Source of the DNA: Phyllobacterium zundukense
GTDB taxonomy: Bacteria > Pseudomonadota > Alphaproteobacteria > Rhizobiales > Rhizobiaceae
Direction: 5' to 3'
DNA: 64,000 nt
Assembly (NCBI RefSeq): GCF_025452195.1
Contig: NZ_CP104969.1
Coordinates: 266,001-330,000 of the forward strand
Notes under the pieces: generated by a model
Databases searched by the model: none
What the model was told of the DNA's origin: nothing
Seen by the model: only the letters and a program-made list of their open reading frames with translations
Shown: positions 1 through 20,534 of the stretch, in pieces
Layout of the letters: each line of letters opens with the position of its first letter
Numbering within the stretch: position 1 is the first letter of the stretch
Made by a program: the position numbers and the translations under genes

Positions 1-387
<387 letters not shown>

Positions 388-399
388 TCCGTGGATTTC

Positions 400-426
400 G
401 CCCTCGGCCATTTATATGTCCGAGGG
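400..426. terminator. Possible convergent terminator hairpin
   Basis: A 7-bp stem (CCCTCGG at 401-407 with CCGAGGG at 420-426) with a 12-nt loop lies between the stops of two convergent genes. There is no strong T-run on either side, so the call is weak. Confidence 0.3.
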
Positions 427-440
427 GCAATCATTTACGA

Positions 441-1391
441 TCAGGTCTGCGCCTTCGGCTCCTGGCCGTTGAAGAACTTCCAAAACGCGTCATAGACTAG
501 ATCGGGACGTTGTTCGGCCGGATAATGACCGGTTGGCATCGCCCAGCCTCGCATGTCGGGAGCCCAGGGCCGCCATGCCTCGAGTGGAGCGAAATGACGC
601 CCACAATGGCTATTGGAACCCCACAGAACCAGCACCGGACAGTTGATCGTGCGCTTGCCGAAGTCTGCCGTATCCATGGCGAGATCGACGCTGACGGTTG
701 CCCGGTAGTCTTCACATACCGCATGGATCTGCTCAGGCGTGGTACAGCGCTTGTACTCAGCCATCGCTTCCGGGCTGAATATCTCAAGGCCGACGCCTTT
801 CTTGTTGAGTTTGTAGTCGATGTAGTAGTCAAGGTCAGCTGTCAGCAGCTTTTCAGGAAATGGTGCCTTCTGTGCCATGAAAAACCAATGATAGGCCTCG
901 AGACCCCAGCCAAGAGTAACGTTGGTAAGGGCATGATATGTCGGCACGATATCAAGCGAAGCCAGCCGCTCGACGCGATCGGGAAAATCAAGCGCCATGC
1001 GGAAAGCAGCGCGCGCACCGCGATCATGCCCGGCAACCTGAAACTTCTCGAAGCCAAAATGCGACATGACTTCGGCGTTGTCCTGCGCCATGGCACGGAA
1101 CGAATAGGCAGAATGATCGTCTCCTCCATCAGGCTTCGAACTGTCGCCATAGCCGCGCAGATCCGGGGCAACAACAGTAAAACTTTTGGCGAGCGCCGGC
1201 GAGATCCTATGCCAGCTTACATGGGTCAGCGGATTACCATGCAACAACAGAAGCGGCGGCCCCTCACCGCCGATCGCTACATTGATCTCGGCGCCCGAAG
1301 TTCGTATCCGCTCATAGCGGAAACCGTGCATCAGCTTTCCCTTTTCTTCAAAGAATGGGCGCATCTCGGACATCGACTCTGTCAGCGACAT
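441..1391 (-). CDS. Alpha/beta hydrolase, fluoroacetate/haloacetate dehalogenase-like
   Basis: A 316-residue alpha/beta-hydrolase. The residues known from fluoroacetate dehalogenases are all in place: oxyanion motif HGNP (51-54), nucleophile elbow GHDRGAR with D123, carboxylate-binding R124 and R127, halide-site H168-W169 (YHWFFMAQ) and Y229 (CEDYRA), and the general-base histidine H289 (GHYPAEQRP). The D-R-x-x-R arrangement separates this family from ordinary esterases. Such enzymes hydrolyse haloacetates to glycolate in the cytoplasm, although many genomic relatives act on unknown substrates. AAGGAG stands about 7 nt before the ATG. It is divergent from the dehydrogenase operon at 1559 and shares its operator region, so it probably belongs to the same regulon. 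Confidence 0.85.
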   Translation of the reverse strand: MSLTESMSEMRPFFEEKGKLMHGFRYERIRTSGAEINVAIGGEGPPLLLLHGNPLTHVSWHRISPALAKSFTVVAPDLRGYGDSSKPDGGDDHSAYSFRAMAQDNAEVMSHFGFEKFQVAGHDRGARAAFRMALDFPDRVERLASLDIVPTYHALTNVTLGWGLEAYHWFFMAQKAPFPEKLLTADLDYYIDYKLNKKGVGLEIFSPEAMAEYKRCTTPEQIHAVCEDYRATVSVDLAMDTADFGKRTINCPVLVLWGSNSHCGRHFAPLEAWRPWAPDMRGWAMPTGHYPAEQRPDLVYDAFWKFFNGQEPKAQT

Positions 1392-1459
1392 CGCATTTCT
1401 CCTTCTCGCTTGCTATCAATTCGGCAGGGATATCCTGGAGATCACGTCATGCCCATTTC

Positions 1460-1490
1460 TGTAAATTGTCAACAATTTATAATTGACAAT
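1460..1490. promoter_or_regulatory. Inverted-repeat operator in a divergent promoter (GntR-like)
   Basis: The region between the hydrolase gene and the dehydrogenase operon holds ATTGTCAA (1465-1472) and its inverse TTGACAAT (1483-1490), separated by 10 bp. The 17-mer TGTAAATTGTCAACAAT (1460-1476) recurs exactly at 12695-12711, before the TTT/MmgE operon. The TTGT..ACAA core resembles operators of FadR/FCD-type GntR repressors, which is inference; no such regulator gene lies in the window. Confidence 0.75.
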
Positions 1491-1558
1491 CGCGAAAAAA
1501 ATCGGCATCCGAGTATATGGATGCGGATTTTCGTCACCCGCCCTCAAGGAGCCACTCA

Positions 1559-2635
1559 ATGAAGACGTACGCGATAGCAGCCATTCCCGGTGATGGTATC
1601 GGCAAGGAAGTCGTTGCCGCCGGTCTCCGTGTTCTTGAGGCGTGCGCAAAGCGGGATGGAAATTTCGGTTTCGACGTTAAGGGCTTCCCTTGGGGATCGG
1701 ATTTCTACAAGGCGAATGGCGTCCTGATGCCCGAGGGTGGCATTGATGAATTGAAAGCCTTCGACGCTATCTATTTCGGTGCGGTGGGTGCGCCAGACGT
1801 TCCTGATCACTTGACGCTATGGGGTCTGCGCCTCGCCATTTGCCAGCCTTTCGATCAATACGCCAATGTTCGTCCGACCCGCATTCTGCCGGGTATCGAA
1901 AGCCCGCTTCGGGGTGTTACCGCCGAAGATCTCGATTGGGTCATCGTCCGCGAGAATTCCGAGGGGGAATATGCCGGCCAAGGTGGCCGCTCGCACCGGG
2001 GCCTGCCGGAAGAGGTGGCGACGGAAGTCTCGATCTTCACGCGCGCCGGCGTGTCCCGCATCATGCGCTTTGCTTTCCAGCTGGCGCAATCGCGGCCGCG
2101 CAAGCTCCTGACCGTCGTCACCAAATCGAACGCCCAGCGCCATGGCATGGTATTGTGGGATGAGATCGCCAGAGAGGTGGCGAGTGATTTTCCCGATGTT
2201 ACCTGGGACAAGATGCTGGTCGACGCGATGACCGTACGCATGACGCTCAATCCGCGATCGCTCGATACCATCGTCGCAACAAATCTTCATGCCGATATTC
2301 TCTCTGACCTGGCTGCCGCGCTCGCCGGATCGATCGGCATTGCGCCAACCGCTAACCTCAATCCCGAGGGGCACTTTCCATCCATGTTCGAGCCGATCCA
2401 CGGCTCTGCCTTCGATATCACTGGCAAAGGCATCGCCAACCCGGTGGGGACGTTCTGGTCGGCAGTGATGATGCTGGAACACCTCGGGGAACCCACGGCC
2501 GCGGCAAGGCTCATGCGCGCCATCGAACGGGTCACCGCTGACCCCACACTTCACACACCGGACCTTCGCGGCAATGCCACGACGGACATGGTCACCGACG
2601 CGGTCTGTGCAGCCATCCTCGGCGACAACGAATAG
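1559..2635 (+). CDS. Tartrate/D-malate dehydrogenase family protein
   Basis: A 358-residue NAD-dependent oxidative decarboxylase of the isopropylmalate/isocitrate dehydrogenase superfamily. Visible motifs: N-terminal IPGDGIGKEVV, substrate loop segment LRLAICQPFDQYANVRP, VRENSEGEYAGQGG, TKSNAQRHGMVLWDE, metal-binding NLHADILSDLAA and NAD-binding GSAFDITGKGIANP. Family members act on D-malate or L/meso-tartrate. I place the start at ATG 1559, with AAGGAG 7 nt upstream; a longer in-frame start at 1517 would run into the operator region. It is followed after 12 bp by a paralogue at 2648, so the two are probably co-transcribed and may act on different stereoisomers or form a mixed oligomer. Confidence 0.88.
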   Translation: MKTYAIAAIPGDGIGKEVVAAGLRVLEACAKRDGNFGFDVKGFPWGSDFYKANGVLMPEGGIDELKAFDAIYFGAVGAPDVPDHLTLWGLRLAICQPFDQYANVRPTRILPGIESPLRGVTAEDLDWVIVRENSEGEYAGQGGRSHRGLPEEVATEVSIFTRAGVSRIMRFAFQLAQSRPRKLLTVVTKSNAQRHGMVLWDEIAREVASDFPDVTWDKMLVDAMTVRMTLNPRSLDTIVATNLHADILSDLAAALAGSIGIAPTANLNPEGHFPSMFEPIHGSAFDITGKGIANPVGTFWSAVMMLEHLGEPTAAARLMRAIERVTADPTLHTPDLRGNATTDMVTDAVCAAILGDNE

Positions 2636-2647
2636 GAAGGAAACAAG

Positions 2648-3751
2648 ATGCCAGCCAACAGCCTCAAGATTGCGGTGATTGCCGGCGACGGCATCGGAAA
2701 AGAGGTAGTCCCTGAAGGGCTGCGTGTTCTCGAAACGGCGGCGGCCGAATTCGACCTCGATTTGAAGTTCGACACGTTCGACTTTGCCTCATGCGACTAT
2801 TACGCGAAGCACGGCCGCATGATGCCCGAGGACTGGAAAGCGCAGATCGGCGGCCATGACGCGATCTTTTTCGGCGCCGTTGGCTGGCCGGAGACCGTTC
2901 CGGATCATATCTCTCTGTGGGGCTCGCTCCTGCAATTCCGGCGCGAATTCGACCAATATGTGAACCTGCGTCCCGTGCGACTTATGCCAGGGGTGCCGTC
3001 ACCCTTGGCAGGCCGCAAGCCGGGCGATATCGATTTCTTTGTCGTCCGCGAGAACACCGAGGGCGAATACTCTTCGATTGGTGGCAAGATGTATCCCGGA
3101 ACGGAGCGGGAGATCGTCATTCAGGAGACGGTGATGAGCCGCACAGGCGTCGACCGCATTCTCCGTTTCGCCTTCGAACTTGCCCAGAGTCGCGGCAAGA
3201 AACACCTGACGTCGGCGACAAAATCCAACGGGATTTCCATCACCATGCCTTATTGGGATGAGCGGGTAGAAGAGATGGCAAAGTCCTACGCCGACGTGCG
3301 CTGGGACAAGTATCACATCGATATTCTTTGCGCGCACTTCGTACTCAACCCCGATCGTTTCGACGTCGTCGTGGCATCCAACCTTTTCGGCGATATCCTC
3401 TCGGACCTTGGCCCTGCCTGCACGGGAACCATCGGCATCGCGCCTTCCGGCAACATTAACCCGGAGCGCAATTTTCCGTCGCTGTTCGAGCCGGTTCATG
3501 GTTCGGCACCGGATATCGCCGGCAAGGGCATCGCCAACCCGATCGGGCAAATCTGGGCGGGAGCCATGATGCTGGAACATCTTGGCCACCCGCAGGCGGC
3601 AGCAGCTATCATAGACGCAATCGAGGCCGTCCTCGCCGATCCCTCTTCACGGACCGGCGATCTAGGCGGCACCGCGAACACGATCACCTGCGGAAGAGCG
3701 GTCGCCGAAGCGCTTTCATCGTCCAATTCAAGCGCGTCGAGGGCATCATGA
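2648..3751 (+). CDS. ttuC: Tartrate dehydrogenase/decarboxylase family protein (TtuC-like)
   Basis: A 367-residue protein of the TtuC/DmlA group. IAGDGIGKEVVPEGLRVLE at the N-terminus, DHISLWGSLLQFRREFDQY, VVRENTEGEYSSIGG, TKSNGISITMPYWDE, the metal-binding SNLFGDILSDLGPA and [14 protein letters not shown] are the family signatures. TtuC oxidises tartrate to oxaloglycolate and can decarboxylate it to D-glycerate; it also uses D-malate. GGAAGG lies just before ATG 2648. The stop overlaps the start of the PdxA2-like gene by 4 nt (ATGA), so translation is coupled. The substrate assignment within the family is by resemblance only. Confidence 0.88.
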   Translation: MPANSLKIAVIAGDGIGKEVVPEGLRVLETAAAEFDLDLKFDTFDFASCDYYAKHGRMMPEDWKAQIGGHDAIFFGAVGWPETVPDHISLWGSLLQFRREFDQYVNLRPVRLMPGVPSPLAGRKPGDIDFFVVRENTEGEYSSIGGKMYPGTEREIVIQETVMSRTGVDRILRFAFELAQSRGKKHLTSATKSNGISITMPYWDERVEEMAKSYADVRWDKYHIDILCAHFVLNPDRFDVVVASNLFGDILSDLGPACTGTIGIAPSGNINPERNFPSLFEPVHGSAPDIAGKGIANPIGQIWAGAMMLEHLGHPQAAAAIIDAIEAVLADPSSRTGDLGGTANTITCGRAVAEALSSSNSSASRAS

Positions 3752-4770
3752 GTACAGAACTGCCCATCATTGCCCTGACACCCGGCGACTGCACCGGGAT
3801 TGGTCCGGAGCAAACCGCGCGGATTTTGCACGACGGGCGGATGTCGGGCACCGCCCGCATTGTCGTGGTTGGCGATGCCCGGGTGATAGATCTCGGGATG
3901 CGCCAGGCAAGCGTATCATTCTCCCATAAGCGCTATACGTCCCCTGCCGCGATTGACTGGTCCGATGGCACTGTGCCGATCATCGATCTCGCCAATACCG
4001 ATCCAGCGCTCTATGCACCCGGGGTCGGCAGCGCGGAATCCGGTCGCGTAACTGGTGAGACATTGTCCCGGGCAATCGATTTCGCCAAGGCTGGTGAAGT
4101 CGACGCGGTTTCCTTCGCACCGCTTAACAAACGCGCCATGTATGATGGCGGATGGAAATTCCCCGACGAGCACAAGATGTTCGCCCATCTGCTTGGCCAC
4201 AAGGGCTATTTCAGCGAGATGAATGTGCTCGACAATCAATGGATGTCGCGTGTCACATCGCACGTTTCGCTCAGACAGGCCGTCGAGCAGATCAACGGCC
4301 CGGCAATCGAAGATGCAATTGTTCTGGCGACGACGATGATGAAGAAGGCCGGGATCGAGTCTCCACGGCTTGCCGTTGCCGCGCTCAATCCACACAGTGG
4401 CGAAGGCGGTCTGTTCGGAACCGAGGAAATCGAGATCATTCGCCCGGCTGTCCAAGCCATGGCGGCGAAGGGCATCAACTGCGAGGGTCCCTTCCCGTCC
4501 GACACGGTCTATCTCAAGGCTTTCGCCGGAGATTATGACGGCGTTCTTTCCATGTATCACGACCAGGGCCAGATCGCGACGAAGATGCGCGGATTCAATC
4601 GGGGCGTGACGGTGACCGCGGGTCTCGATACCGTTTTCACAACGCCCGCGCACGGGACAGCGTTTGATATCGTCGGCAAAGGCGTGGCTGATACCGGGGC
4701 GTTTGAAAACGCGATCAGCCTGGCAAGCAGGCTGGTCCAGTTCAAACGGCTCAAGGCGTTACAGGCTTGA
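3748..4770 (+). CDS. pdxA2: PdxA2-like 4-hydroxythreonine-4-phosphate dehydrogenase family protein
   Basis: A 340-residue PdxA-fold NAD-dependent dehydrogenase. The three metal-ligand histidines of the family are present: H172 (VTSHVS), H216 (LNPHSGEGG) and H271 (MYHDQGQ); the N-terminus has the usual LTPGDCTGIGPE. PdxA proteins oxidise and decarboxylate a phosphorylated hydroxy acid. Copies outside pyridoxine synthesis (PdxA2) act on 4-phospho-erythronate or -threonate and usually sit beside a DUF1537 kinase. No such kinase is in this window, so it may lie upstream, or the enzyme may work with the two tartrate-type dehydrogenases it is translationally coupled to. Its 3' end overlaps the convergent chrA-like gene by 12 bp. 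Confidence 0.88.
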   Translation: MSTELPIIALTPGDCTGIGPEQTARILHDGRMSGTARIVVVGDARVIDLGMRQASVSFSHKRYTSPAAIDWSDGTVPIIDLANTDPALYAPGVGSAESGRVTGETLSRAIDFAKAGEVDAVSFAPLNKRAMYDGGWKFPDEHKMFAHLLGHKGYFSEMNVLDNQWMSRVTSHVSLRQAVEQINGPAIEDAIVLATTMMKKAGIESPRLAVAALNPHSGEGGLFGTEEIEIIRPAVQAMAAKGINCEGPFPSDTVYLKAFAGDYDGVLSMYHDQGQIATKMRGFNRGVTVTAGLDTVFTTPAHGTAFDIVGKGVADTGAFENAISLASRLVQFKRLKALQA

Positions 4771-5313
4771 AACCCAGGTACTCAATGTCGATGCCAACAT
4801 AGCGCCAAGGCCGCCAAGCGCCAGCACACCCAAGACCGGAAACCTTGGCGCAAAATAGAGAATTACCCCAGAAAGGCCGGCGATTACAAAAGCTGTGACC
4901 CCTCCATCTGCCAGCCGGAACAATGACAACACGCCGGCGATGATCAGACCGATACCGACCGGCGCTAGACCCTCCCGCATGGCGCGATGCCATTTCTTGT
5001 CGCGATGGTGGTTCGTCAGCTTGAAGACGGAATAGCATAGCAGCGATGAGGGAACGAAGAGGGCGAGCGTGGCGACGAACGCGCCGAGCCAGCCAGCGAC
5101 CTTCCAGCCAATCACTGTAGCAAGCATCATTCCAGGCCCGGGAGCGGCGCGTGACACTGCGAAGAGGTCGAGGAATTCGCGAGAATTCACCCAGGCATGA
5201 ACAGCGACAGTTTCATGCTGGATACCCGCGACAATCGCTGCGCCGCCGCCGATCGAGGTGAGCGAAAAAGGGATGAACACCAGGGCGATTGCGACGAGGG
5301 TATCGAAACGCAC
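4759..5313 (-). CDS. chrA: Chromate transporter, second half-domain protein (CHR family)
   Basis: A 184-residue membrane protein with one CHR domain: five or six hydrophobic segments, the SLTSIGGGAAIVAG glycine motif and the AVSRAAPGPGMMLATVIGW signature. Short-chain CHR proteins come as pairs and work together as a chromate/sulfate-type transporter. The start chosen is GTG at 5313, one base after the TGA of the upstream partner gene (TGA-A-GTG); an ATG at 5400 would overlap the partner by 86 bp and adds a non-hydrophobic tail. Whether chromate is the true substrate is not shown; neither chrB regulator nor other metal genes are adjacent. Confidence 0.8.
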   Translation of the reverse strand: MRFDTLVAIALVFIPFSLTSIGGGAAIVAGIQHETVAVHAWVNSREFLDLFAVSRAAPGPGMMLATVIGWKVAGWLGAFVATLALFVPSSLLCYSVFKLTNHHRDKKWHRAMREGLAPVGIGLIIAGVLSLFRLADGGVTAFVIAGLSGVILYFAPRFPVLGVLALGGLGAMLASTLSTWVSSL

Positions 5314-5314
5314 T

Positions 5315-5875
5315 TCAGATTCTCCGCCAGGCCAGAGCGACGCTGACCGGGGCGATGACGCAGGCAACAGGGATGAGGGGAAAGCGGAAAATCCCGACAA
5401 GTATCGCCGTCACCGCAATGGTAATGATGGAAGGAGGAAATCGCATCGCCCTGCGAACACCATGGACGCACATGATGATGAGGAGGCCCATTGCAGCAAA
5501 GGCCACACCGTCCGAAATCACCGGCAGCAAGGGATAGCCGGCAAGGGCATCGAACAACTGGCAAAGACCGACGACCGCAAAAAACGGACCGACGAGAAAC
5601 CCGATAACGCAGGTCAAGGCACCGACAGGTCCGCGCAGCTGCTCACCCATACAGATGACCAGATTGACCACATTCGCACCGGGCAGCATTTGCGAGATCG
5701 CCAGACTGCTCGAGAAATCCTCTTCGTCGATCCAGCGCTTGCCGAGAACGAACTCCCTGTAGAGCCAGCCGCTGAGGCCTCCACCGAAACTCAAGATACC
5801 GATCTTGAAACAGAGGAGAAAGAGAGAACGAAGGCGTGGTGTTTCTAGCGGAGAGGCAGGGACTGGAGAAGTCAA
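5315..5875 (-). CDS. chrA: Chromate transporter, first half-domain protein (CHR family)
   Basis: A 186-residue CHR-domain membrane protein: FKIGILSFGGGLSGWLYREF is the N-terminal family signature, then SLAISQMLPGANVVNLVICMG and several transmembrane helices. It is the N-terminal-type partner of the half-domain protein encoded 1 bp downstream; the two together equal one full-length ChrA. The only in-frame start found is TTG at 5875, without a clear ribosome binding site, so the start is uncertain. The pair converges on the pdxA2-like gene. The 148 bp upstream (5876-6023) shows no recognisable element. Confidence 0.78.
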   Translation of the reverse strand: MTSPVPASPLETPRLRSLFLLCFKIGILSFGGGLSGWLYREFVLGKRWIDEEDFSSSLAISQMLPGANVVNLVICMGEQLRGPVGALTCVIGFLVGPFFAVVGLCQLFDALAGYPLLPVISDGVAFAAMGLLIIMCVHGVRRAMRFPPSIITIAVTAILVGIFRFPLIPVACVIAPVSVALAWRRI

Positions 5876-6023
5876 GGGCTGTGTCCGTTGCTTGGCTGAA
5901 CGACTCTAACTTGATACGCGCTAGGAATTTGCTCTGGTCCCCTCTTGGGTCTCCCGCTGGCGTTAGTCAACCGGCAATTTCACGTGTTCAGCACATATTG
6001 TCGTGACCATTCCACGCTGCGCT

Positions 6024-6788
6024 TCAGGGCAGGAAAGCTCCTCCGTTCACATGCATTGTTTGTCCCGTTATGAAGCGGCCTGCCGGGCCGGCAAGATAGA
6101 GCACCGCAGCCGCAACTTCTTCCGGCGTTCCACGCCGGCCGACCAGTGTCCGCGTCGTATTGTGGTGCGCCGGCTCGCCTCCGGATGAGGTATGGGCGCG
6201 ATTTGTATCGATCATTCCGGGCGAGACCAGGTTCACAGTGACGCCGCGCGGACCAAGCTCGTGCGCCAAGGCCTTGGTGAATCCATCGAGCCCGGCCTTG
6301 GCCGAAATGACATGGGCGCGGTTCATCGCCCCGGTATAGGCGGTGAGACCACCGATATTGACGATTGCTCCCCTCTCGCCTGCGATTAGATGGGGGATTG
6401 CCGCGCGGCTCATCAGAAACGCTCCATCCAGCGTCACACCCATGACTTCGCGCCAATCGGCGAAGGACAGCTTCTCGACTGGAGCCTCCCTCCGGATAGC
6501 TGCGTTGTTGACGAGAAGATCGAGACCGCCGAGGGCGTCCACCGCCTGTCCGACGAGCCGCGCCGCATCAGCCTCTTGTGCCACGTCACCGAGAAGTACA
6601 ATTGCCCGGCTACCGTGTGCTTCGACTTCGCGCGCTACGGATTCAGCCGCTGCTTGATCCGACCTTGCAACAATGGCGATCGAAGCGCCTGCTTCGGCTA
6701 GCGCAAGCGCGATAGCGCGTCCGATATTGCGCGATGCACCCGTTACCAGTGCGACACGGCCCTTGAGTTCATGATTGTCCTTGCTCAT
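6024..6788 (-). CDS. Divergent SDR family protein lacking the catalytic Ser/Tyr
   Basis: A 254-residue classical short-chain dehydrogenase fold: cofactor motif TGASRNIG (17-24), LLVNNAAI (91-98) and C-terminal ITGQTMHVNGG. The active-site YxxxK is altered: K164 is kept (HVISAKAG), but position 160 is Val instead of Tyr, and position 147, where the catalytic Ser normally sits, is Gly (NIGGLT). I recall related rhizobial/Burkholderia SDRs with the same RAHV..AK pattern, so this may be a subfamily trait and not decay. It is the last gene of the MmgE-TTT operon and overlaps the preceding gene by 4 nt. It might act with a different base, isomerise, or bind a ligand without redox chemistry. Confidence 0.85.
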   Translation of the reverse strand: MSKDNHELKGRVALVTGASRNIGRAIALALAEAGASIAIVARSDQAAAESVAREVEAHGSRAIVLLGDVAQEADAARLVGQAVDALGGLDLLVNNAAIRREAPVEKLSFADWREVMGVTLDGAFLMSRAAIPHLIAGERGAIVNIGGLTAYTGAMNRAHVISAKAGLDGFTKALAHELGPRGVTVNLVSPGMIDTNRAHTSSGGEPAHHNTTRTLVGRRGTPEEVAAAVLYLAGPAGRFITGQTMHVNGGAFLP

Positions 6789-8155
6789 GCCCGCGCCGCC
6801 TCCAAACCGACTTTGCCGCCCTCTGCTATCTGATTGAGCGAACTGCGCAATGCTGCGATCTTGCCGCTGTCAAAGCCGCCGAAACGCAAATTGGCCTCGA
6901 ACTTGGCAGCCAGTTCGGCATCCGGCAATGGTTCCTGTGCGCCACCGCGCATATATGGCTGCCTGAATTCGTGCACGGTTCCATCCTTCAGGGTTGCCTT
7001 GAGGTGGCCGGTGAAGTTTTTGGGATAAGGATCGTTAGGATCGATCTCGTAGGAGATCTTCGCGGCAAGTGCCAGCACCTTTGGGTCCTTGACGCGTTCA
7101 TCGGTAAACTGTCCGAGACCTGCCTCACCATCGAGAAAACCAACCGCCATACAGAATGGTGTCGAGAATTTGCCGGCATAGCCATTGGGCGGCCGATGCT
7201 TTTCAGCGAGTGGTTCCCATAGACGATGAACAGTGCCCTCGCCTACCTTGCAAGTGATGGAAACAATATCCCCTGGCAGCACGCCCGCGGCTGCCAGCTT
7301 TTTCGCACAATCGATAAATGGCTGTGTCATGGTTCCGCACGCGTAGGGTTTAAAAGCCAGCGTCTCCAGGATCCAGGTTTGGCCAAGTCCATCGAGCAGC
7401 GGTGCGAAATCTGGCGTCTTCGATGGAGCAAACGCCTTGTAGAACCCATGCGAACCGTCGAACACGGTAATCGGTCCGGTAAACCCGCCTTCTGCAAGAA
7501 GAGCGGCACGCAGTCCGGCCTGTGCCGCAGCCCCGGCATGCAGGCGCTTGGTGGAGCTTCCATCGGCGAGATATTCGATGATGCCGGACGCGAGACTGCC
7601 CGAAATGCCGAGTGCTCTGCCAATTGTTGCAGCATCGAGACCGAGCGCGGCGCCAACCGCGGCGGCAGCGGCGGGAGCACCAAATATCGCCGTGGGGTGG
7701 AAGCCGGCCTTGTGGGTCGCCTGCGGTGCAACAAGGCTCATCCGGCACATCAATTCGGAACCAACCGCAATGCCGCGCATCACCGCCGTGCCATCAAGAT
7801 TGCGTTTTTCGGCGATGGCCAGAACAGCCGAGACGATCACCGCGCCGGCGTGGATGGGTCCGCCTTCAAAAGTGTCGTCATAGTCCTCCCCGTGGGCGGC
7901 CGTGCCATTGACGAGCGCGGCATCGTAAAGCCCGAGGCCGCGATCATGACCATAAGCCGTGCACGACCCCTCATCCACTGCACTGGCAAGCGCGTCGCGG
8001 ACATAGTCCGTGTGTCTTGCGGCAATGGAAAGACCGATAATATCGAATATCAGGCGACGGCAGACATCAGCGACCGCAGATGGTGGCGCGGCCTCCTCGG
8101 CAAAGGCTGCTAGTTTAACCGCCACTGGCGTCGATGTCGGGACGGAATGGTTCAT
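6785..8155 (-). CDS. MmgE/PrpD family protein (2-methylcitrate dehydratase/epimerase superfamily)
   Basis: A 456-residue MmgE/PrpD protein. Family marks are NGTAAHGEDYDDTFEGGPIHAG, KAGFHPTAIFGAPAAAAA, the YLADGSSTKRLHAGAAAQAG segment and FKPYACGTMTQPFID. The family includes 2-methylcitrate dehydratase, cis-aconitate decarboxylase and iminodisuccinate epimerase, all acting on di- or tricarboxylates without a metal cluster. Here it is encoded between the TTT permease and an SDR, with 4-nt overlaps on both sides, so it very likely processes the imported acid. A second, only distantly similar family member (11203-12624) opens the same operon. The true reaction cannot be told from sequence. Confidence 0.85.
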   Translation of the reverse strand: MNHSVPTSTPVAVKLAAFAEEAAPPSAVADVCRRLIFDIIGLSIAARHTDYVRDALASAVDEGSCTAYGHDRGLGLYDAALVNGTAAHGEDYDDTFEGGPIHAGAVIVSAVLAIAEKRNLDGTAVMRGIAVGSELMCRMSLVAPQATHKAGFHPTAIFGAPAAAAAVGAALGLDAATIGRALGISGSLASGIIEYLADGSSTKRLHAGAAAQAGLRAALLAEGGFTGPITVFDGSHGFYKAFAPSKTPDFAPLLDGLGQTWILETLAFKPYACGTMTQPFIDCAKKLAAAGVLPGDIVSITCKVGEGTVHRLWEPLAEKHRPPNGYAGKFSTPFCMAVGFLDGEAGLGQFTDERVKDPKVLALAAKISYEIDPNDPYPKNFTGHLKATLKDGTVHEFRQPYMRGGAQEPLPDAELAAKFEANLRFGGFDSGKIAALRSSLNQIAEGGKVGLEAARA

Positions 8156-9648
8156 GACTGCGCTTCCTCGATTTTGGTCTTGCGGGCGTCGCGGAATTCG
8201 CGGCTAAGCGAAAAGACGACGAAGATGAGAGCGATCGACAGCAGGCAAACGGCGATCGTATCCTGAAGGAATATCATGTGATCGCCGCCTGACAGTACGA
8301 GCGACCGGCGATAGCTCGATTCCACCATGTGGCCGAGCACGACACCAAGGATCATCGGCAGCACGGGGAAACCGGCGATCCTCATGAGATAGCCAACCAA
8401 GCCGAGTGCAAGTGCAATGCCGAGATCGAACAGACTGTTATTCAGGGTGAAGATGCCTGACAGGATCAACGCAAAGATAAATCCGGCGCGGTAAGCCCGT
8501 GGTCTGTTAACAAGCCAGATGCAGGCGGGCAGGATGATCATGCCGACGCCGATCTGCGCGATGATAGCGATGAACGAGCCGACATAGATACTGTCGATGA
8601 CCTGCGCGCTCTGCTCGAAGAGGCGCGGGCCAGGGATGAGCCCGTGCATCAGCAAACCGCCAAGCAGGACGGCTGTAGAATTGGAGCTTGGGATGCCGAA
8701 GCTGAGTAGCGGGATCAGCGCTGTACTTGCCACTGTGTTATTGGCAGCTTCCGGCGCTGCGACGCCTTCTTCTGAACCTTTGCCGAAAAGCTGCGGTGTT
8801 TTCGACCAGCGCTTGGCTTCGTTGTAGGACATGAACGCGGCGATGGATCCCCCGCCTCCCGGGGTCAATCCTTCGAACAATCCAAGAATGCAACCGATGG
8901 TTTGCGAGCGCTTGAGCTTGTTCATCATCGACCGGCTTGGCAGCTTGATCCTGATTGTCTCGTTCAATTGCAGGACGGTTGACGAGCCGGATTGGCTCAT
9001 GAGCTCGGTAAGTGCGAACAGACCAACCATCACCAGTACGGGTTCGATCCCGCCGAGGAGATCGGGGATATCGAAGGTGAAGCGGGTAACGCCGGATATT
9101 GGATCCGTGCCAACGGTCGCGATCATCAATCCGACGGTCGCGGCTGCGAGGCCCTTGATCAATGACCCGCCGCTCATGGAGGCGATCACGCTGAGGCCGA
9201 GGATCCCAAGGCCGAAATAGGATGGCGGGGTGAATGCCAGCGCCAGCCAGGATAGGGGTTCGGTCAGCAAAATCAGCATTGCGAGGCCAAAGAGGCTTCC
9301 AACGACGCCCGACATCAGCGAGATGCCGAGTGCCTCGCCGGCACGCCCCTGCCGGTTCATCTCATAGCCATCGATAACCGTGGCAGCAGAGGAGTTGGTT
9401 CCAGGCGTCCTTATGAGAATGGCCGGGATCGAGCCGCCATATTCAGCACCGATGTAGACGCATGCCAGCAGCGCAATCGCTTGAGCCGGGTCCATGGTGT
9501 AGGTGAAGGGCAAAACGAGCGCCATGGTAATGGACGCGGATATGCCCGGCAGAGCACCACCAAGAATGCCCCAGGAAAGCCCGCCAATGGCAACGAAGAA
9601 GAGTGGGGTCTCGGTCAGCAGGTGGATGATGTCCCATAATGTGGTCAT
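8152..9648 (-). CDS. tctA: Tripartite tricarboxylate transporter large permease TctA
   Basis: A 498-residue integral membrane protein of the TctA family. It shows the first conserved block GILGGALPGISASITMALVLPFTYTMDP, the second GCILGLFEGLTPGGGGSIAAFMSYNEAKRWSK, the NNTVASTALIPLLSFGIPSSNSTAVLLGGL signature and about 12 hydrophobic stretches, spread here over its whole length as usual. It forms the channel of the Na+ or H+-driven TTT importer together with TctB and the periplasmic TctC. The start overlaps the tctB stop by one base and the stop overlaps the MmgE gene start by 4 nt, so translation is coupled. Confidence 0.93.
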   Translation of the reverse strand: MTTLWDIIHLLTETPLFFVAIGGLSWGILGGALPGISASITMALVLPFTYTMDPAQAIALLACVYIGAEYGGSIPAILIRTPGTNSSAATVIDGYEMNRQGRAGEALGISLMSGVVGSLFGLAMLILLTEPLSWLALAFTPPSYFGLGILGLSVIASMSGGSLIKGLAAATVGLMIATVGTDPISGVTRFTFDIPDLLGGIEPVLVMVGLFALTELMSQSGSSTVLQLNETIRIKLPSRSMMNKLKRSQTIGCILGLFEGLTPGGGGSIAAFMSYNEAKRWSKTPQLFGKGSEEGVAAPEAANNTVASTALIPLLSFGIPSSNSTAVLLGGLLMHGLIPGPRLFEQSAQVIDSIYVGSFIAIIAQIGVGMIILPACIWLVNRPRAYRAGFIFALILSGIFTLNNSLFDLGIALALGLVGYLMRIAGFPVLPMILGVVLGHMVESSYRRSLVLSGGDHMIFLQDTIAVCLLSIALIFVVFSLSREFRDARKTKIEEAQS

Positions 9649-10124
9649 CAGAACATTCCTTGAAAAAGCGAGCCTGCCGGCTGATGGACGCCAAGCAGTT
9701 TGACGAAAATTGCCCAGTAGAACACCGCACCGCCGACCGCCGCTGCCAACACCACCCAGTTGCGCGGCGCCCCCTCATAGAGCGCAACCGCGCCGATCAA
9801 CAGAGCAGTGCCCGCGACGTAGCCGATAAACGGAAGGACAAAAACGTAAACCGCACCCAGAAGGAGAAAGCCGATCGCGCGCGGCAAGCCGGCGTCACCC
9901 TCGTCGGCGTCCGCCGACGCGGTCGCTGTTCGAGCTCGTCTGAAGAGCATGGCACGTGCAATCAAAAGGACAGCAAGAATGGCAAGGATGATGGACAGCA
10001 CATGCGGCAAGCCCGTGGCACCCACTTCATCGGACAAGGTGCTGTCGGCGATTTGACTGGACCAGGCATAATACGTCCCTGAGACGGCAAGAAGAACAAC
10101 GCCGCTGATAAGATCTTTGTTCAT
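9648..10124 (-). CDS. tctB: Tripartite tricarboxylate transporter small subunit TctB
   Basis: A 158-residue protein with four predicted transmembrane helices, typical of TctB: an N-terminal helix (LISGVVLLAVSGTYYAWSS), a conserved GATGLPHVLSIILAILAVLL block, a charged cytoplasmic loop (residues ~62-80) and two C-terminal helices. It is the small membrane partner of TctA. I choose ATG 10124 (MNKDLIS), preceded by GAGGG, over the in-frame ATG 10145, which has no ribosome binding site and lies inside the hairpin region. Confidence 0.88.
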   Translation of the reverse strand: MNKDLISGVVLLAVSGTYYAWSSQIADSTLSDEVGATGLPHVLSIILAILAVLLIARAMLFRRARTATASADADEGDAGLPRAIGFLLLGAVYVFVLPFIGYVAGTALLIGAVALYEGAPRNWVVLAAAVGGAVFYWAIFVKLLGVHQPAGSLFQGMF

Positions 10125-10145
10125 TGGGTGGCCCTCATCCGACAT

Positions 10146-10172
10146 AGGGGACCGGTTGATGGCCGATCCCCT
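10146..10172 (-). promoter_or_regulatory. Intercistronic hairpin between tctC and tctB
   Basis: A 10-bp stem (10146-10155 with 10163-10172, one mismatch) and a 7-nt loop lie 7 bp after the tctC stop. No T-run follows in the transcribed direction, so it is more likely an mRNA-stabilising or partial-stop element that raises the binding protein over the permeases than a full terminator. Confidence 0.6.
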
Positions 10173-10179
10173 CGCGTTA

Positions 10180-11148
10180 TTATTTGATGGCGCCTGTCGA
10201 CTTCAGAAACGCTTCCGTTGTCGATCCGAAATTATCGATGAAAGCCGGATAGTCCTTGTGCCCGATGAACTGAGGCACGAGCACTTCAGCAGTATAGGCC
10301 TTCTTGTAGTCCGGGTCCTCGAGGAGCTTCTTGACGGCTTCATCCCAAATAGCGGTTGTGGAGTCCGGAATACCCTTGGGACCGGCGAGGCCACGGAACT
10401 TGACCAGACTGACGTCAAAACCCGATTCTTTCACAGTTGGCACATCCGGCTTCTCGGTAATGCGTTCAGGATTGAATGTGGCAAGCAAAGTGATCTTGCC
10501 GGCATCGAGCTGCGAGCGCAATTCCTGGATTTCGCCAATGCCGATATCGAGCGTGCCATTGAGAACATTCAGCATCATATCGCCACCGCCCTCGTGGGTG
10601 ACAATTGCAGGCGTGACGCCTGCCGCCTTCTTCAGTTGCTCGGCTGCCTGACGTTCCAGCGATGCGGGATTAGCCGCGCCCCAGCGCCCTCGCTCTTTCT
10701 TTGCATGATCGATCACGTCTTTCAGCGACTTGAAAGGCCCATCAGTCCGTGTGTAAATCACTTCACTATCGGCGAAGATATTTACCAGCGGATCCATGTC
10801 CTTGTAAGTATTCTGCGGTTTGCTCATCAGCGACGTGTAGATATAGGTCGGCGTTGTCGCATAAAAGACGCTTCCGTCGGCTGGCGCTGTCGCAACGCGT
10901 GCCATGGCCTTTGCGCCACTGCCGCCCTGGACATTTTCCACGATAAAGGCAGCGCCGATATACTTGCCCAAGTACTTCGTCATTTCGCGCAGGAATACGT
11001 CACTACCGCCGCCAGGGCTGGAATGGGTCACCAGCGTCACAACTTTATTGGGATAAGGCAGCGGATCGGCTTTAGCCGCTGCGCTGGATAAGATAGCGGC
11101 AGTGGCAAGGCCGACCGCTGTCCTCCCGATCAATTTCATAAAATGCAT
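10180..11148 (-). CDS. tctC: TTT solute-binding protein TctC (Bug family)
   Basis: A 322-residue periplasmic receptor. The N-terminal 28 residues are a Sec signal peptide (LIGRTAVGLATAAILSSAAAKA). Mature features are family-typical: YPNKVVTLVTHSSPGGGSDVFLREM, VENVQGGSGAKAMARVA and the AGPKGIPDSTTAIWDEAVKKL segment. TctC/Bug proteins bind citrate, tartrate, glutamate-like or aromatic acids; specificity cannot be read here. GGGAG stands 9 nt before ATG 11148. It is the second gene of the operon and is followed by a hairpin (10146-10172) before tctB. Confidence 0.92.
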   Translation of the reverse strand: MHFMKLIGRTAVGLATAAILSSAAAKADPLPYPNKVVTLVTHSSPGGGSDVFLREMTKYLGKYIGAAFIVENVQGGSGAKAMARVATAPADGSVFYATTPTYIYTSLMSKPQNTYKDMDPLVNIFADSEVIYTRTDGPFKSLKDVIDHAKKERGRWGAANPASLERQAAEQLKKAAGVTPAIVTHEGGGDMMLNVLNGTLDIGIGEIQELRSQLDAGKITLLATFNPERITEKPDVPTVKESGFDVSLVKFRGLAGPKGIPDSTTAIWDEAVKKLLEDPDYKKAYTAEVLVPQFIGHKDYPAFIDNFGSTTEAFLKSTGAIK

Positions 11149-11202
11149 TGTCTCTCTCCCTTCAAGTACCGTTTCTTCAGAACGGTTTTCTACTTTCTCA
11201 GA

Positions 11203-12624
11203 TCATTTTGCCGCGAGTTCCCGTTCGCCGCTGATGAGTGCAACAAGTCTTCCGACATCAGCACCTTTATCTATACTCTGCACCAATGCCAGCAGTTCAT
11301 CCTGGCAAGGGGCGTCAATGACGCCCTCCGCGCACATGCGGAACTTATCCTGAAGTCCAGCATCGCTGATCGGATTGGAAGGCCCGCCGCGGTAGCGCTC
11401 ATCGGCCCACTGTATCAACGTACGCCCGTCCTTGGTGATCACCTCGATACGCGAGCGGATCTTGTCATAGCCGAGCGCATCGATCTCGAGATCGTTGATG
11501 ACATCCGTACGCGCTTGCAGGTCCTGCATGGCATCTCCGGCTACAAACGCGTCCTCGAATTCATGGTGACTGGCGCGGCGGCACAACACGATCATCGCAA
11601 GCAGAGCGGGCATCGAGAATTTGGCCTGGAGATGATTCTGCGCTATCGGATAGCGAATAGGCTCGATGATATTTTTGCCGGCAAAGAAGCGGATGCGTTC
11701 GACTTCTTGAGGTTTCAGATCGTGATCCAGGACCAGCTTCAGCATTGCGTCCATCGATTGATGGGTGAGAATACCCGACGGGTATGGCTTGATGCTGACG
11801 CCGGGCTCGATAATGGTCAAAGGAGCGCCAAAACCGGCCACGGCTTTGTCCTCGTCAAAGCCCTCGCCCATGACGGAAAAGAAGCCCCAGGGGCCGTCGA
11901 GTGCGGCCGGATCGGCTTCGAAACCAGCGGCGGCGAGACGTGCCGCAGTGACACCGTTTTCGCAGGCACGTCCGACATGAAGGGGCTTGGTCATGGTGCC
12001 GAAATTCACCCGAATTCCAGCGGCAAAACTCGCCGCCAAACCGAGTGCATGGGCAAGCTTGTCTCCCGTCAGTCCTAGAAGCTTGGCAGCAGCGACAGCC
12101 GCGCCAAATGTGCCGACCGTACCGCTTGTATGATGTCCGCGGCGATAGTGGCGCGGCTTCATCCATTCGGCAATCTTGCATTCGACTTCAAATCCGAGCT
12201 GGAAGGCGAGCATGAGATCCCGACCATCCACATTGCCTTTTTCACTGGCAATGATCAGCGCAGCAGTAAGCGGTGGAACGGAGGGGTGGGTCAGCAGACC
12301 ATAGATGTGAGCCGGATCATGGGAGACTTGTGTGTCATCCCAATCGTGAGCATGTCCGGCAGTCCCCCATACGCGGGCGGCCAGTGATGCCGGGACTTTC
12401 GCCGATCCGTTGCCCGGCAAGGGCGCATCTTCACGTCCTCCCTGAGCAAGCGCGTCTTCGATGAGAATCCGCACCGAGGCTTCGCGACTACCGGCGAGAT
12501 AGAGGCCGACGGTGTCAACCATGCAGCGACGGCCGACAACAAGTGCTTCTTCCGGCAGGTCCTCATAGGTCGTGCGTTCGATGAAACGTACGGCCTTTGC
12601 CGTGATGTCGGAAGATAAATTCAC
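11203..12624 (-). CDS. MmgE/PrpD family protein, first gene of the TTT operon
   Basis: A 473-residue MmgE/PrpD protein, distantly related to the one at 6785. Family segments: VGLYLAGSREASVRILIED, WGTAGHAHDWDDTQ, HHTSGTVGTFGAAVAAAKLLGL, FGTMTKPLHVGRACENGVTAARLA and SIKPYPSGILTHQSMDA. Likely a dehydratase, decarboxylase or epimerase of a carboxylic acid. I place the start at GTG 12624, with AGGAG about 10 nt upstream; the TTG at 12651 is in frame but overlaps that site. It is promoter-proximal to an operon that runs through tctCBA to the SDR, under the operator at 12695-12732. Confidence 0.85.
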   Translation of the reverse strand: MNLSSDITAKAVRFIERTTYEDLPEEALVVGRRCMVDTVGLYLAGSREASVRILIEDALAQGGREDAPLPGNGSAKVPASLAARVWGTAGHAHDWDDTQVSHDPAHIYGLLTHPSVPPLTAALIIASEKGNVDGRDLMLAFQLGFEVECKIAEWMKPRHYRRGHHTSGTVGTFGAAVAAAKLLGLTGDKLAHALGLAASFAAGIRVNFGTMTKPLHVGRACENGVTAARLAAAGFEADPAALDGPWGFFSVMGEGFDEDKAVAGFGAPLTIIEPGVSIKPYPSGILTHQSMDAMLKLVLDHDLKPQEVERIRFFAGKNIIEPIRYPIAQNHLQAKFSMPALLAMIVLCRRASHHEFEDAFVAGDAMQDLQARTDVINDLEIDALGYDKIRSRIEVITKDGRTLIQWADERYRGGPSNPISDAGLQDKFRMCAEGVIDAPCQDELLALVQSIDKGADVGRLVALISGERELAAK

Positions 12625-12694
12625 GCGTCTTGTCTCCTGATGGATATGCAAAGTTCGGTCGGATATTGGGCCGTCAGGAAACTAGGGTGTAGAA

Positions 12695-12732
12695 TGTAAA
12701 TTGTCAACAATCATTGTAAATTGTTGACAATT
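12695..12732. promoter_or_regulatory. Perfect inverted-repeat operator before the MmgE/TTT operon
   Basis: AATTGTCAACAAT (12699-12711) and its exact inverse ATTGTTGACAATT (12720-12732) flank 8 bp. The left arm lies in the 17-mer TGTAAATTGTCAACAAT that also occurs at 1460-1476; TGTAAATTGT also precedes the right arm. It sits about 70 bp upstream of GTG 12624 and downstream of the stop of the oxidoreductase gene at 12752, so it should control the MmgE-TTT operon. Probable dimer or tetramer site of a GntR-type repressor. Confidence 0.8.
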
Positions 12733-12751
12733 AAGGGCGGGAGCGGATGTG

Positions 12752-14074
12752 TCAGGCGTGCGGTGGCAGTACGGCTCGATCCCGCTTCGCGGTGAGCCAA
12801 TCCCTGACGCGGTAATAGCGTAGCGTCAGTTGCGGTCCAAAATTCATGTAAAACGGCGCCGCCGTCAGCGGCTCAAGCTTGAGCGCCAAATCCCTGTCAG
12901 GCACGCCTAGGGCCCATTCCGACAAAATGCCGCCTAGCATGCTCCCGGTCGGCACGCCGCGCCCGGACAGTCCGGTCAGCGCGACGACACCCGGAGCCAG
13001 ATCGTACAGGCGCGGAACCGTACGGTATTGCATGTCGAGTTCGCCAAACCAGAAATACTCCCAGCGGATGTCTTGGTCGATTTGCGGATGAAGCCATTTG
13101 AGCCGGTCAGCCATCACCTTTTTAGTATATGCCAAATCCTTGCCTCGTCGTCCCATCGGGAACATCGACGCAACGATGCGGCCTTCGGCGTTGTATTTGT
13201 AGACAAAGATGTCGCCGCGCCCGTCATGGATTGTGGTGTTCTGCGGTAATACGGTGTGGCGTGCGTCTTCGCTCAGTGGCTGTGTCGCGGCCACGAACAC
13301 GCGTTGAATTTTGAACGTCTTGTCCAGGCCGGGCCAGCCATCGACCGTATAGGCGCCGGTACCAAAGATGACCTTGTCTGCGATGACGCGGCCTCCGGGC
13401 GTTTTAACCGCCCATCCTCCGCCCTCGCGCTCAACCTTTGCCACAGCCGAATGTGTATGGATCACGCCGCCTTCAGAGATCACGGCGCGTGCCAATCCGC
13501 GCGCATATCCAAGTGCATTGAGATGCCCGGCTTCGGAATGAAACCAACCGCCGTGGAATCGCGGGCTGCCGGTGACTGCCTCGACTTCGCTCTTGTCCAG
13601 AACGCGTGTCTTCGCACCCACTGCGTTATAGTCCCGCGCTTTTTCTGCGATGGTCGCAATGGCACTCGGCGTATGCGCCCCCATGACATACCCGTTCTGC
13701 TGCCATTCGCAGTCGATGCCATAACGCGAGATCATCTCCGCCACGCGATCGTTCGCCCGAGTCTGTCGCTGTATAAGCCGCTCCGCCCAGGGCTCGCCCA
13801 GCATCTTGCGCAGTTCCGGCAAACTATAATGCGTGAACGTCGGGGTGCAGTGTCCGGCATTCCGGCCGGAGCCGCCAAATCCGATCTCCTGTGCTTCAAG
13901 AAGTACTACCTTCACACCCGAGCGCGCGAGTTCCAACGCGGTCGTCAAGCCCGTGTAACCCCCGCCGACGATGCAGACATCAGCCTTGGTCGTGCCTTCC
14001 AACGTAGATGTTTCCGGTGCAGGTGCCGCCGTTGCGTACCAGAGCGTCGCTTCTAAGGGAGAGAATTTCGGCAC
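12752..14074 (-). CDS. DAO-type FAD-dependent oxidoreductase (PuuB-like)
   Basis: A 440-residue flavoprotein. The Rossmann dinucleotide motif VCIVGGGYTGLTTALELA lies at residues ~33-50, followed by LLEAQEIGFGGSGRNAGH, the flavin contact typical of gamma-glutamylputrescine oxidase and related amine or amino-acid oxidases; the C-terminal GLSGRGVPTGSMLGGILSEW is the second FAD-binding strand. It oxidatively deaminates a secondary or primary amine group of an unknown substrate. Start GTG 14074, with GGGGAGG 8 nt upstream. It is the last gene of the ABC importer operon (20313 to 12752), so its substrate is probably imported by that system. Confidence 0.85.
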   Translation of the reverse strand: MPKFSPLEATLWYATAAPAPETSTLEGTTKADVCIVGGGYTGLTTALELARSGVKVVLLEAQEIGFGGSGRNAGHCTPTFTHYSLPELRKMLGEPWAERLIQRQTRANDRVAEMISRYGIDCEWQQNGYVMGAHTPSAIATIAEKARDYNAVGAKTRVLDKSEVEAVTGSPRFHGGWFHSEAGHLNALGYARGLARAVISEGGVIHTHSAVAKVEREGGGWAVKTPGGRVIADKVIFGTGAYTVDGWPGLDKTFKIQRVFVAATQPLSEDARHTVLPQNTTIHDGRGDIFVYKYNAEGRIVASMFPMGRRGKDLAYTKKVMADRLKWLHPQIDQDIRWEYFWFGELDMQYRTVPRLYDLAPGVVALTGLSGRGVPTGSMLGGILSEWALGVPDRDLALKLEPLTAAPFYMNFGPQLTLRYYRVRDWLTAKRDRAVLPPHA

Positions 14075-14087
14075 TATCCACCCTCCC

Positions 14088-14975: not shown

Positions 14976-14985
14976 CGCGATCTCC

Positions 14986-15936: not shown

Positions 15937-15970
15937 TGCGTCGATCTCCGATAACGGTTCGAAGGCAGGA

Positions 15971-15999
15971 CAGGGCCAGGGATCGTCACCCTGGCCCTG
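15971..15999 (-). promoter_or_regulatory. Intercistronic hairpin after the solute-binding-protein gene
   Basis: A perfect 11-bp G+C-rich stem (15971-15981 with 15989-15999) and a 7-nt loop lie just after the binding-protein stop. No T-run follows on the minus strand. It probably protects the upstream mRNA from 3' decay so that binding protein exceeds permease. Confidence 0.7.
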
Positions 16000-16005
16000 C
16001 AGATC

Positions 16006-17682: not shown

Positions 17683-17762
17683 TGTCGTTTCCCTTCTTTA
17701 TTGGTTTGTGTTCAATGTTCCAGTTTGCATTCTATCTGCCAGTCGGCAGAGCATTCTCGACA

Positions 17763-17786: not shown

Positions 17787-17789
17787 ATC

Positions 17790-19820: not shown

Positions 19821-19821
19821 A

Positions 19822-20508: not shown

Positions 20509-20534
20509 TCGAAAAAGCACCCCCAGCCCAAAAA

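Follow-up and report, generated by a model that had tools for sequence, protein, structure and literature searches.

Background

Several groups of FadR-subfamily regulators, namely GntR, HpxS, HypR, MdcY, PrpR and UxuR, have operators of the GT-N2-AC type, described as A/T-rich palindromes with TKGT/ACMA boxes and a 2-nt centre, occurring as double sites in divergons (PMC4494728). Among individual relatives, the repressor VanR (Atu1419) of Agrobacterium fabrum has been solved with palindromic DNA; the GntR-family repressor DhdR of Achromobacter denitrificans protects a region that overlaps a putative -35 box and is released by a hydroxy-dicarboxylate (PMC8651671); and in Escherichia coli, one GntR-type repressor, NanR, with bound Zn, governs the three operons of the sialoregulon via repeated half-sites (PMC8012715). 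Here we consider a 64,000-nt stretch of the genome of Phyllobacterium zundukense (hereinafter the window), in which a 17-bp word recurs at two distant catabolic promoters, and argue that this word is probably the operator of a VanR-like GntR/FCD repressor of the FadR subfamily, denoted GntRB, that would control four promoter regions of one gene cluster. The window comprises bases 266001-330000 of a 394-kb contig (C1) of the 6.41-Mb genome; coordinates below 1 lie upstream of it, in the segment C1:246001-266000 (L016), where the window coordinate equals the L016 position minus 20000.

The 17-mer and its palindromic core

The 17-mer TGTAAATTGTCAACAAT is found in exact copies at 1460-1476 and 12695-12711 and nowhere else in the genome. 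An earlier note, made from the letters of the window, had reported both copies, held their chance recurrence to be very unlikely and proposed a genome scan, naming many copies at unrelated genes as the outcome that would refute its reading; the scan confines the exact word to this gene cluster, and no such multitude of copies was encountered. When up to 3 mismatches are allowed, the window contains five matches, all at the 1460 and 12695 promoters, as compared to a mean of 0.13, and never five, in 100 shuffles, which bears out the view that chance is a poor explanation; in the whole genome, with both strands scanned, there are 17 such matches versus 4 for a backward control pattern.

Inside the word lies a 12-bp palindrome that had been overlooked, the core ATTGTYRACAAT (ATTGT-CA-ACAAT). 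Within the 17-mer, this core, ATTGTCAACAAT, is self-complementary at 10 of the 12 positions, the symmetry being broken only at the two central bases. Genome-wide, the exact core occurs four times, at 1465, 12700, 12720 and C5:2945994; the last of these was set aside as chance because it is located inside an RND (resistance-nodulation-division)-efflux-like reading frame (named from reading the translation). With one mismatch tolerated, the core is found at 81 places in the genome, a minority of which were inspected.

The 17-mer had been described as one arm of inverted repeats, and the arms are as reported: at the first site, 8-bp arms ATTGTCAA (1465-1472) and TTGACAAT (1483-1490) stand 10 bp apart and, at the second one, perfect 13-bp arms (12699-12711 and 12720-12732) stand 8 bp apart. 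In terms of cores, the 12695 promoter carries two of them, 20 bp from centre to centre, and the 1460 promoter has a single core plus a half-site. The repeat at 1465-1490 is composed of a core that faces a hydrolase gene and of a box, AATTGACAAT, that faces the dehydrogenase gene TTC2; in other words, the two boxes belong to divergent promoters and face away from each other. Beyond the core, ACA is found 2 bp further on in 28 of the 58 non-redundant sites, versus at most 3 of the 58 at each of 25 other offsets. This third half-site, some 9.5 nt from the core centre, is the TGTAA part of the 17-mer and, therefore, the whole 17-mer can be viewed as one extended operator.

Predicted operators at four promoter regions

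A matrix derived from 52 non-redundant sites (named Phyllobacterium excluded) placed 12720, 12700, 1465, -3297 and -8168 as the top five sites in 94 kb. Judging from the sequence, these predicted operators, which occupy four promoter regions within about 21 kb, are a real, conserved set. In the divergent promoter, the core (1465..1476, minus strand) has its internal TTGACA facing the alpha/beta-hydrolase gene ABhyd (441-1391, minus); the TGTAA extension of the 17-mer (1460..1464, minus), with the reverse complement TTACA, supplies the third half-site; and the second box, ATAATTGACAAT (1479..1490, plus), directs TTGACA toward the tartrate-dehydrogenase-like gene TTC2 that starts at 1559. Ahead of the operon MmgE3-tctCBA-MmgE2-SDR (SDR, short-chain dehydrogenase/reductase), the proximal core (12700..12711, minus) has its TTGACA toward MmgE3, with TAGTTT 17 bp on, and the second core (12720..12731, plus) lies 20 bp from the proximal one. 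The two remaining regions, upstream of the window, had escaped the earlier note: ACTGTTGACAATTAACA, at -3297, lies 39 bp past GntRB and before MmgE1, with 2 mismatches to the 17-mer, and TCTGTTGACAGT, at -8168, 3 mismatches off the core, precedes the genes of an ATP-binding cassette (ABC) importer that lead up to GntRB.

Between the importer and GntRA, another regulator gene (-9031..-8201), two palindromes, CTGTCAACAG (-8238) and CTGTTGACAG, are found 71 bp apart (L016:11762-11842, i.e., window -8238 to -8158); the first of the pair may serve GntRA. Immediately past the second operator box, the short TTC2 leader contains a hairpin, GCATCC...GGATGC (1505-1524), terminator-like on both strands, which could reflect attenuation or chance.

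Association of the operator with GntRB

The earlier note suggested looking for a GntR/FCD gene upstream of base 1, and such a gene, with the Pfam GntR and FCD domains, is indeed present: GntRB occupies -4089..-3337 (L016:15911-16663), directly before the -3297 operator and the third MmgE-type operon. Its association with the operator was assessed at three taxonomic depths. Among 20 genomes of the genus, the 17-mer with at most one mismatch is found in 6 of the 8 that possess GntRB and in none of the 12 that lack it (Fisher p = 7e-4), and all 16 matches lie on the contig that carries GntRB, at distances from the gene (approximately 5 and 16 kb) that agree with those seen here. Among 199 genomes of the family, a 24-bp composite pattern made from the divergent promoter and matched with no more than 3 mismatches is present in 5 of the 6 genomes with GntRB and in 2 of the 193 without (p = 5e-8). 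Both p-values are optimistic because the genomes are related.

For a broader view, named genomes were scanned with a GntRB alignment, which yielded 49 loci. We regarded 31 of these as orthologues (L074-L104, identity of 59-98%), whilst 6 others (L105-L110, 40-42%) were mapped for control purposes and 12 (L111-L122, 25-39%) were left unmapped; four of the 31 (L085, L086, L098, L100) coincide with the genomes G043, G042, G037 and G188 of the family set. The 31 loci come from Phyllobacterium, Rhizobium, a 'Rhizobiaceae bacterium', Mesorhizobium, Pseudaminobacter, Mangrovicella, Aureimonas, Aurantimonas, Shinella, Devosia, Falsochrobactrum, Microvirga, Paracoccus and Achromobacter. In every one of them, the core with at most one mismatch is present outside the mapped genes, and in 17 it is exact. 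The total of 75 such cores in 601,149 bp compares to 2.9 on average over 10 dinucleotide shuffles (exact cores, 20 versus 0-1), and 73 of the 75 are located outside mapped genes and no more than 320 bp from a gene end; in 26 of the 31 loci, a core lies within 320 bp past GntRB. The presence of GntRB in all 31 loci is there by construction, since the loci were found by GntRB, so that the independent tests are the co-occurrence in the genus and in the family. In the control loci, the core with at most one mismatch was found outside mapped genes in none of the six; therefore, the operator seems to belong to the close relatives of GntRB.

The same sites precede the same genes. Taking into account genes matched at 45% identity or more and 60% coverage or more, together with 320 bp of upstream sequence and at most one mismatch, and assigning a divergent site to both genes, we found the core upstream of MmgE1 in 26 of 27 cases (the remaining one at 2 mismatches), of ABhyd in 25/27, of TTC2 in 15/19 and of GntRC, a GntRB paralogue discussed below, in 3/3. 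Lower counts were obtained for the importer gene ABC_ATP (8/26, plus 8 at 2 mismatches), SDR (6/26), PdxA (7/25), TTC3 (4/19) and TTC1 (2/29), and none for TctC (0/5) and MmgE3 (0/2), both of which follow other operon genes in most maps. The importer value is an undercount because the importer site of this very genome is 3 mismatches off. From Phyllobacterium to Paracoccus, Microvirga and Achromobacter, the flanks of the operator differ between genera while the same genes follow. Two of the loci, L088 and L095, belong to Achromobacter, a betaproteobacterium, and contain the cluster with the same operators and an 80-84% identical GntRB, which suggests horizontal transfer.

The candidate regulator

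GntRB matches PF00392 with 57.5 bits (cut-off 27) and PF07729 with 77.8 bits (cut-off 24.3), a domain content that assigns it to the FadR (FCD) subfamily, and is 96-98% identical to its copies in four named Phyllobacterium genomes. The predicted operators, of the form ATTGT-YR-ACAAT, match the palindrome of this subfamily, TKGT/ACMA with 2-3 nt between GT and AC, as given by the consensus in PMC4494728. The GntRB orthologue yields a predicted fold with a mean predicted local distance difference test score (pLDDT) of 82.5 and a predicted template modeling score (pTM) of 0.69; its best match in PDB by E-value is VanR Atu1419, several other FCD regulators having higher template modeling scores. 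No assignment to a narrower family followed from the models tried: the score against the PhnR equivalog of Burkholderia type (TIGR03338) is 189.8 bits versus a cut-off of 271.5, and the scores against the NCBIfam models of UxuR, NanR, LldR, PdhR and CsiR are all under their cut-offs. In an alignment of 23 GntRB-type sequences (a chosen spread of the 49 loci, with L111 included, and L101 and L102 omitted because of a stop codon in the span), N145, H149, H193 and H215 are invariant. We take these residues, by analogy, to be metal ligands of the FCD domain, where a metal site is presumably found in part of the subfamily, and their invariance suggests a carboxylate effector held by the metal.

Promoter geometry

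TTGACA is the -35 consensus of sigma-70 promoters. When the centre of the core reads TG, the palindrome contains TTGACA facing the gene, and such is the case at 68 of the 71 sites of MmgE1, ABhyd, ABC_ATP and GntRC, the exceptions having TA, CA and CG. On the other side of the divergent sites, a second TTGACA follows the core within 26 bp at 14 of 16 sites of TTC2, 4 of 4 of TTC3 and 3 of 7 of PdxA. Importer promoters contain T-A---T exactly 17 bp on in 9 of 13 non-redundant cases, versus at most 3 of 13 at other spacings between 10 and 25. In this genome, the respective hexamers are TACGTT (importer), CACAGT (MmgE1), TAGTTT (MmgE3), TGACGT (hydrolase) and CATCCG (TTC2). With a -35 box inside the operator, a feature that the earlier note did not bring up, GntRB probably represses by covering this box.

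Proposed regulation

The scheme that appears to fit these data best can be envisaged as follows. Dimers of GntRB would bind ATTGTYRACAAT (half-sites ATTGT/ACAAT, GT-N2-AC), often together with an extra half-site TTACA or TGACA. The asymmetric centre would make one strand of the palindrome read TTGACA, the -35 box facing the gene, such that the bound dimer covers the -35 position. The regulated regions would be the ABC importer, probably along with GntRB itself (-8168), i.e., autoregulation through the importer genes; MmgE1-AbrB-TTC1 (-3297); the divergent pair of the hydrolase and TTC2-TTC3-PdxA (1465 and 1479); and MmgE3-tctCBA-MmgE2-SDR (12700 and 12720). GntRB would then be released by a carboxylate effector that binds to the FCD domain at its conserved Asn/His metal site. 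The operator sites, their conservation, orientation and position, and their co-occurrence with GntRB are read from the DNA as such; GntRB as the binder, repression, autoregulation, the class of the effector and the kind of substrate are inferred. The single GntR-like regulator postulated in the earlier note gains weight from the operators that travel with GntRB across genera; that one regulator suffices is something we infer for this genome only. As a whole, that note was right on the essentials, having missed the core palindrome, the two upstream operator regions, the -35 overlap, the paralogue GntRC in relatives and the divergent nature of the repeat with 10-bp spacing.

Several observations weigh against this scheme. 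The operator set comes from sequence comparison and the binding of GntRB is deduced from it; the 31 loci are related by descent, so the counts are not independent. No site is found just past GntRB in 5 of the 31 loci (L087, L096, L101, L102, L103), and none within 2 mismatches at 2 of 27 ABhyd and 10 of 26 importer genes. The operator is, perhaps, not private to GntRB, given that some genomes have GntRC downstream of the same word, and in the two family genomes that contain the composite but lack a GntRB hit (G096 and G170) a CG-centred version of the word lies beside allantoinase-like and xanthine-dehydrogenase-like genes (named from reading translations). As for geometry, sites that face SDR have TG at the centre in only 1 of 6 cases (2 CA, 2 CG, 1 TA) and the TTC2/TTC3/PdxA side of divergent sites has CA in 26 of 27; because of these counts, the claim on orientation is limited to the four gene classes named above. 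MmgE1 promoters have T-A---T at 17 bp in 0 of 20 cases (A---T in 10 of 20, the next best spacing giving 3), hydrolase promoters lack a clear -10 peak (A---T in 2 of 18 at 17 bp and 5 of 18 at 18 bp; T6 of the hexamer in 12 of 18 at 17 bp), and the hexamers TGACGT and CATCCG of this genome are unlike a -10 box. Finally, a generic sigma-70 scan called no promoter in 1300-1700 and, at 12720-12693, only a different one.

The CG-centred exceptions are, perhaps, under an HpxS-like regulator. At L128:8067 and L129:8054, from two related genomes in which GntRB gave no hit, ATTGTCGACAAT and a TTGTC repeat close by precede genes that resemble those of purine catabolism.

Alternative explanations

That the shared 17-mer is a product of chance or a copied stretch devoid of function is hardly credible. 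A near-match pair at C3:66804 and C3:68734 does turn out to be mere inverted flanks, some 1.9 kb apart (L045 ~5793-7760), probably the ends of a mobile element, but the shuffle controls and the recurrence of the word before the same genes in distant genera, within differing surroundings, argue otherwise. It is also very improbable that the double palindrome at 12695-12732 is an RNA hairpin, the terminator of the upstream DAO gene, rather than an operator: although the folding energy of its minus strand, -16 kcal/mol, was not equalled in any of 200 shuffles (z -5.1) and the DAO stop codon is found about 20 bp before the repeat, there is no U-run and no terminator call. Moreover, in four relatives of the genus, the second core reads ATTGTCGACAAT, so that the DNA palindrome is kept and one hairpin pair is spoiled, and in Rhizobium sp. 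BG4 and Neorhizobium NCHU2750 there is a single core at this place, the same word being found, too, at promoters without a second core.

More serious is the question of which protein reads the word. GntRA, itself a GntR/FCD protein, shares the intergenic region of the -8168 site, where the second palindrome at -8238 is located, and this genome encodes many FCD regulators (a GntRC query has 9 matches at E <=1e-15, GntRB included), so GntRA or a more distant FCD regulator could bind the operators while GntRB controls something else. We consider this unlikely inasmuch as GntRA was mapped in only 5 of the 31 loci (L074-L077 and L079, with flanks of up to 10 kb and no genome-wide search for GntRA there) whereas the operators are kept in all 31. 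An even call is whether paralogues GntRB and GntRC share the operator in this lineage, with GntRC lost here and GntRB having taken over all four promoter regions. GntRC is 39-42% identical to GntRB; a GntRC-type gene heads the operon GntRC-MmgE3-tctCBA-MmgE2-SDR, behind the same operator, in Rhizobium sp. BG4 and Neorhizobium NCHU2750. Thus, some members of the lineage may have GntRC reading the word, GntRB alone being left here: in this genome, the best match to the GntRC of G188 is GntRB (42%), the GntRC of NCHU2750 has no match at E 1e-45, and the operator nevertheless persists before MmgE3. Nine family genomes have a GntRC-like hit and no GntRB hit; the core, at 1-2 mismatches, precedes that gene in three of them, two of one genus, but not in the other six. 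In addition, the GntRC proteins of BG4 and NCHU2750 are only 45-52% identical to that of G188, so 'GntRC' may comprise more than one group. The sharing of the word by two paralogues is otherwise compatible with control by GntRB and not opposed to it.

Genes of the cluster and a possible substrate

Upstream of the window, the order is a dipeptide-importer/DapA group with GntRA, the ABC importer (ATPase, binding protein, permease), GntRB, MmgE1, an AbrB-type membrane protein and TTC1. The 3' end of TTC1, the last gene of MmgE1-AbrB-TTC1, which starts behind the -3297 operator, occupies 1..387 (plus). ABhyd (441..1391, minus) is an alpha/beta hydrolase (Pfam Abhydrolase_1) of the fluoroacetate-dehalogenase or epoxide-hydrolase kind, with 3qyj, 9c9f and 4bat as the best solved chains; its best solved relatives include Alr0039, fluoroacetate dehalogenases and a 'probable epoxide hydrolase'. 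Its best score against the NCBIfam models of haloalkane dehalogenases is 62.3 bits versus a cut-off of 241; the label 'dehalogenase' that it had been given stands as a family resemblance only. TTC2 (1559..2635, plus) and TTC3 (2648..3751, plus) are assigned to the tartrate dehydrogenase family by TIGR02089 (560.2 and 575.5 bits, respectively, above the equivalog cut-off of 470.4), and a PdxA-family dehydrogenase (3748..4770, plus; PF04166) has D-threonate 4-phosphate dehydrogenase (6e85) as its best solved chain.

The minus-strand operon comprises MmgE3 (11203..12651), an MmgE/PrpD-family protein that is the first operon gene in this genome, the solute-binding protein TctC (10180..11148), TctB (9648..10145), the permease TctA (8152..9648), MmgE2 (6785..8155), also of the MmgE/PrpD family, and, as the last gene, the SDR oxidoreductase (6024..6788). 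Among solved structures, the MmgE proteins match iminodisuccinate epimerase best, followed by cis-aconitate decarboxylase. The gap at 4771-6023 was considered as a possible place for a hidden regulator and rejected as such, having been found to hold two chromate-transporter halves. These adjacent ChrA-type halves, at 4759-5875 between the PdxA and SDR genes, may be a part of the pathway, and not a chromate resistance system, because the pair is also present in Neorhizobium NCHU2750. On the other side of the operator and directed toward it, the minus strand of 12752-22184 encodes a flavin adenine dinucleotide (FAD) oxidoreductase, an oligopeptide-type ABC importer, a second FAD oxidoreductase, an SDR, a MarR regulator (19822-20349) and an ABC ATPase; none of the five best matrix hits in the 94 kb lies in front of these genes. 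Rfam models, at gathering scores, had no match in window positions 1-15000.

Family resemblances suggest that the substrate is, perhaps, a C4 dicarboxylate with a hydroxy, epoxy or halo group. In this way, we weighed tartrate, trans-epoxysuccinate, iminodisuccinate and halo-acids, none of which can be chosen; a trans-epoxysuccinate hydrolase is among the members of the hydrolase family to which ABhyd belongs. The conservation of the cluster makes it plausible that all operons deal with one compound, as the earlier note had it, and the GntRB regulon probably co-controls the uptake and breakdown of one small acid. A much more specific picture, which we put forward tentatively and regard as rather doubtful in its entirety, would combine an undescribed pathway that processes a C4 dicarboxylate in an epoxidised, halogenated or hydroxylated form (hydrolysis of the epoxide or halide, oxidations by tartrate dehydrogenase and PdxA, MmgE-type isomerases and several transporters) with an operator that doubles as the -35 box and two GntR paralogues that share one word in some members of the lineage, this genome being a natural knock-out of one of them, whose orphan operator the other has taken over.

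Comparison with known systems

In the open-licence literature, a regulon with this operator or a description of this gene cluster was not found among the matches listed. For a conserved catabolic cluster of Rhizobiaceae, other Alphaproteobacteria and Achromobacter, the analysis provides a likely regulator together with the probable operator and promoter geometry. GntRB should answer to the substrate or an intermediate, so that an operator-reporter screen with GntRB could reveal the compound, and the missing GntRC offers a clean test of how paralogous repressors with one operator divide or inherit control.

With the GT-N2-AC groups, this locus shares, besides the palindrome, boxes, centre and double sites mentioned at the outset, a weaker extra half-site 7-12 nt from the centre (about 9.5 here); it differs from them in the target genes and in that the centre mostly completes TTGACA toward the gene, orthology having been compared for UxuR only, with a score below the cut-off (PMC4494728). 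VanR Atu1419 (PDB 6za3, 6za7; 25-26% identity), the best fold match by E-value, resembles the proposed GntRB in being a repressor with a Zn site, a short palindrome and more than one operator near its genes, whereas its operator, ATGTATACAT, coincides in part with -10 boxes or with the spacer between -10 and -35, and the protein is a tetramer with looping that serves a hydroxycinnamate pathway (PMC7797058). DhdR, an FCD-type repressor, resembles the scheme proposed here in the -35 overlap and the class of effector; unlike GntRB, it has a 13-bp palindrome, GTTATCAGATAAC, a single operon, dhdR-d2hgdh, and D-2-hydroxyglutarate as its ligand (PMC8651671). NanR is akin in governing several operons through repeated half-sites, which are direct repeats GGTATA, not a palindrome (PMC8012715). 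On the whole, the cluster most likely represents one GntR/FCD regulon, governed by a predicted regulator of an already known kind.

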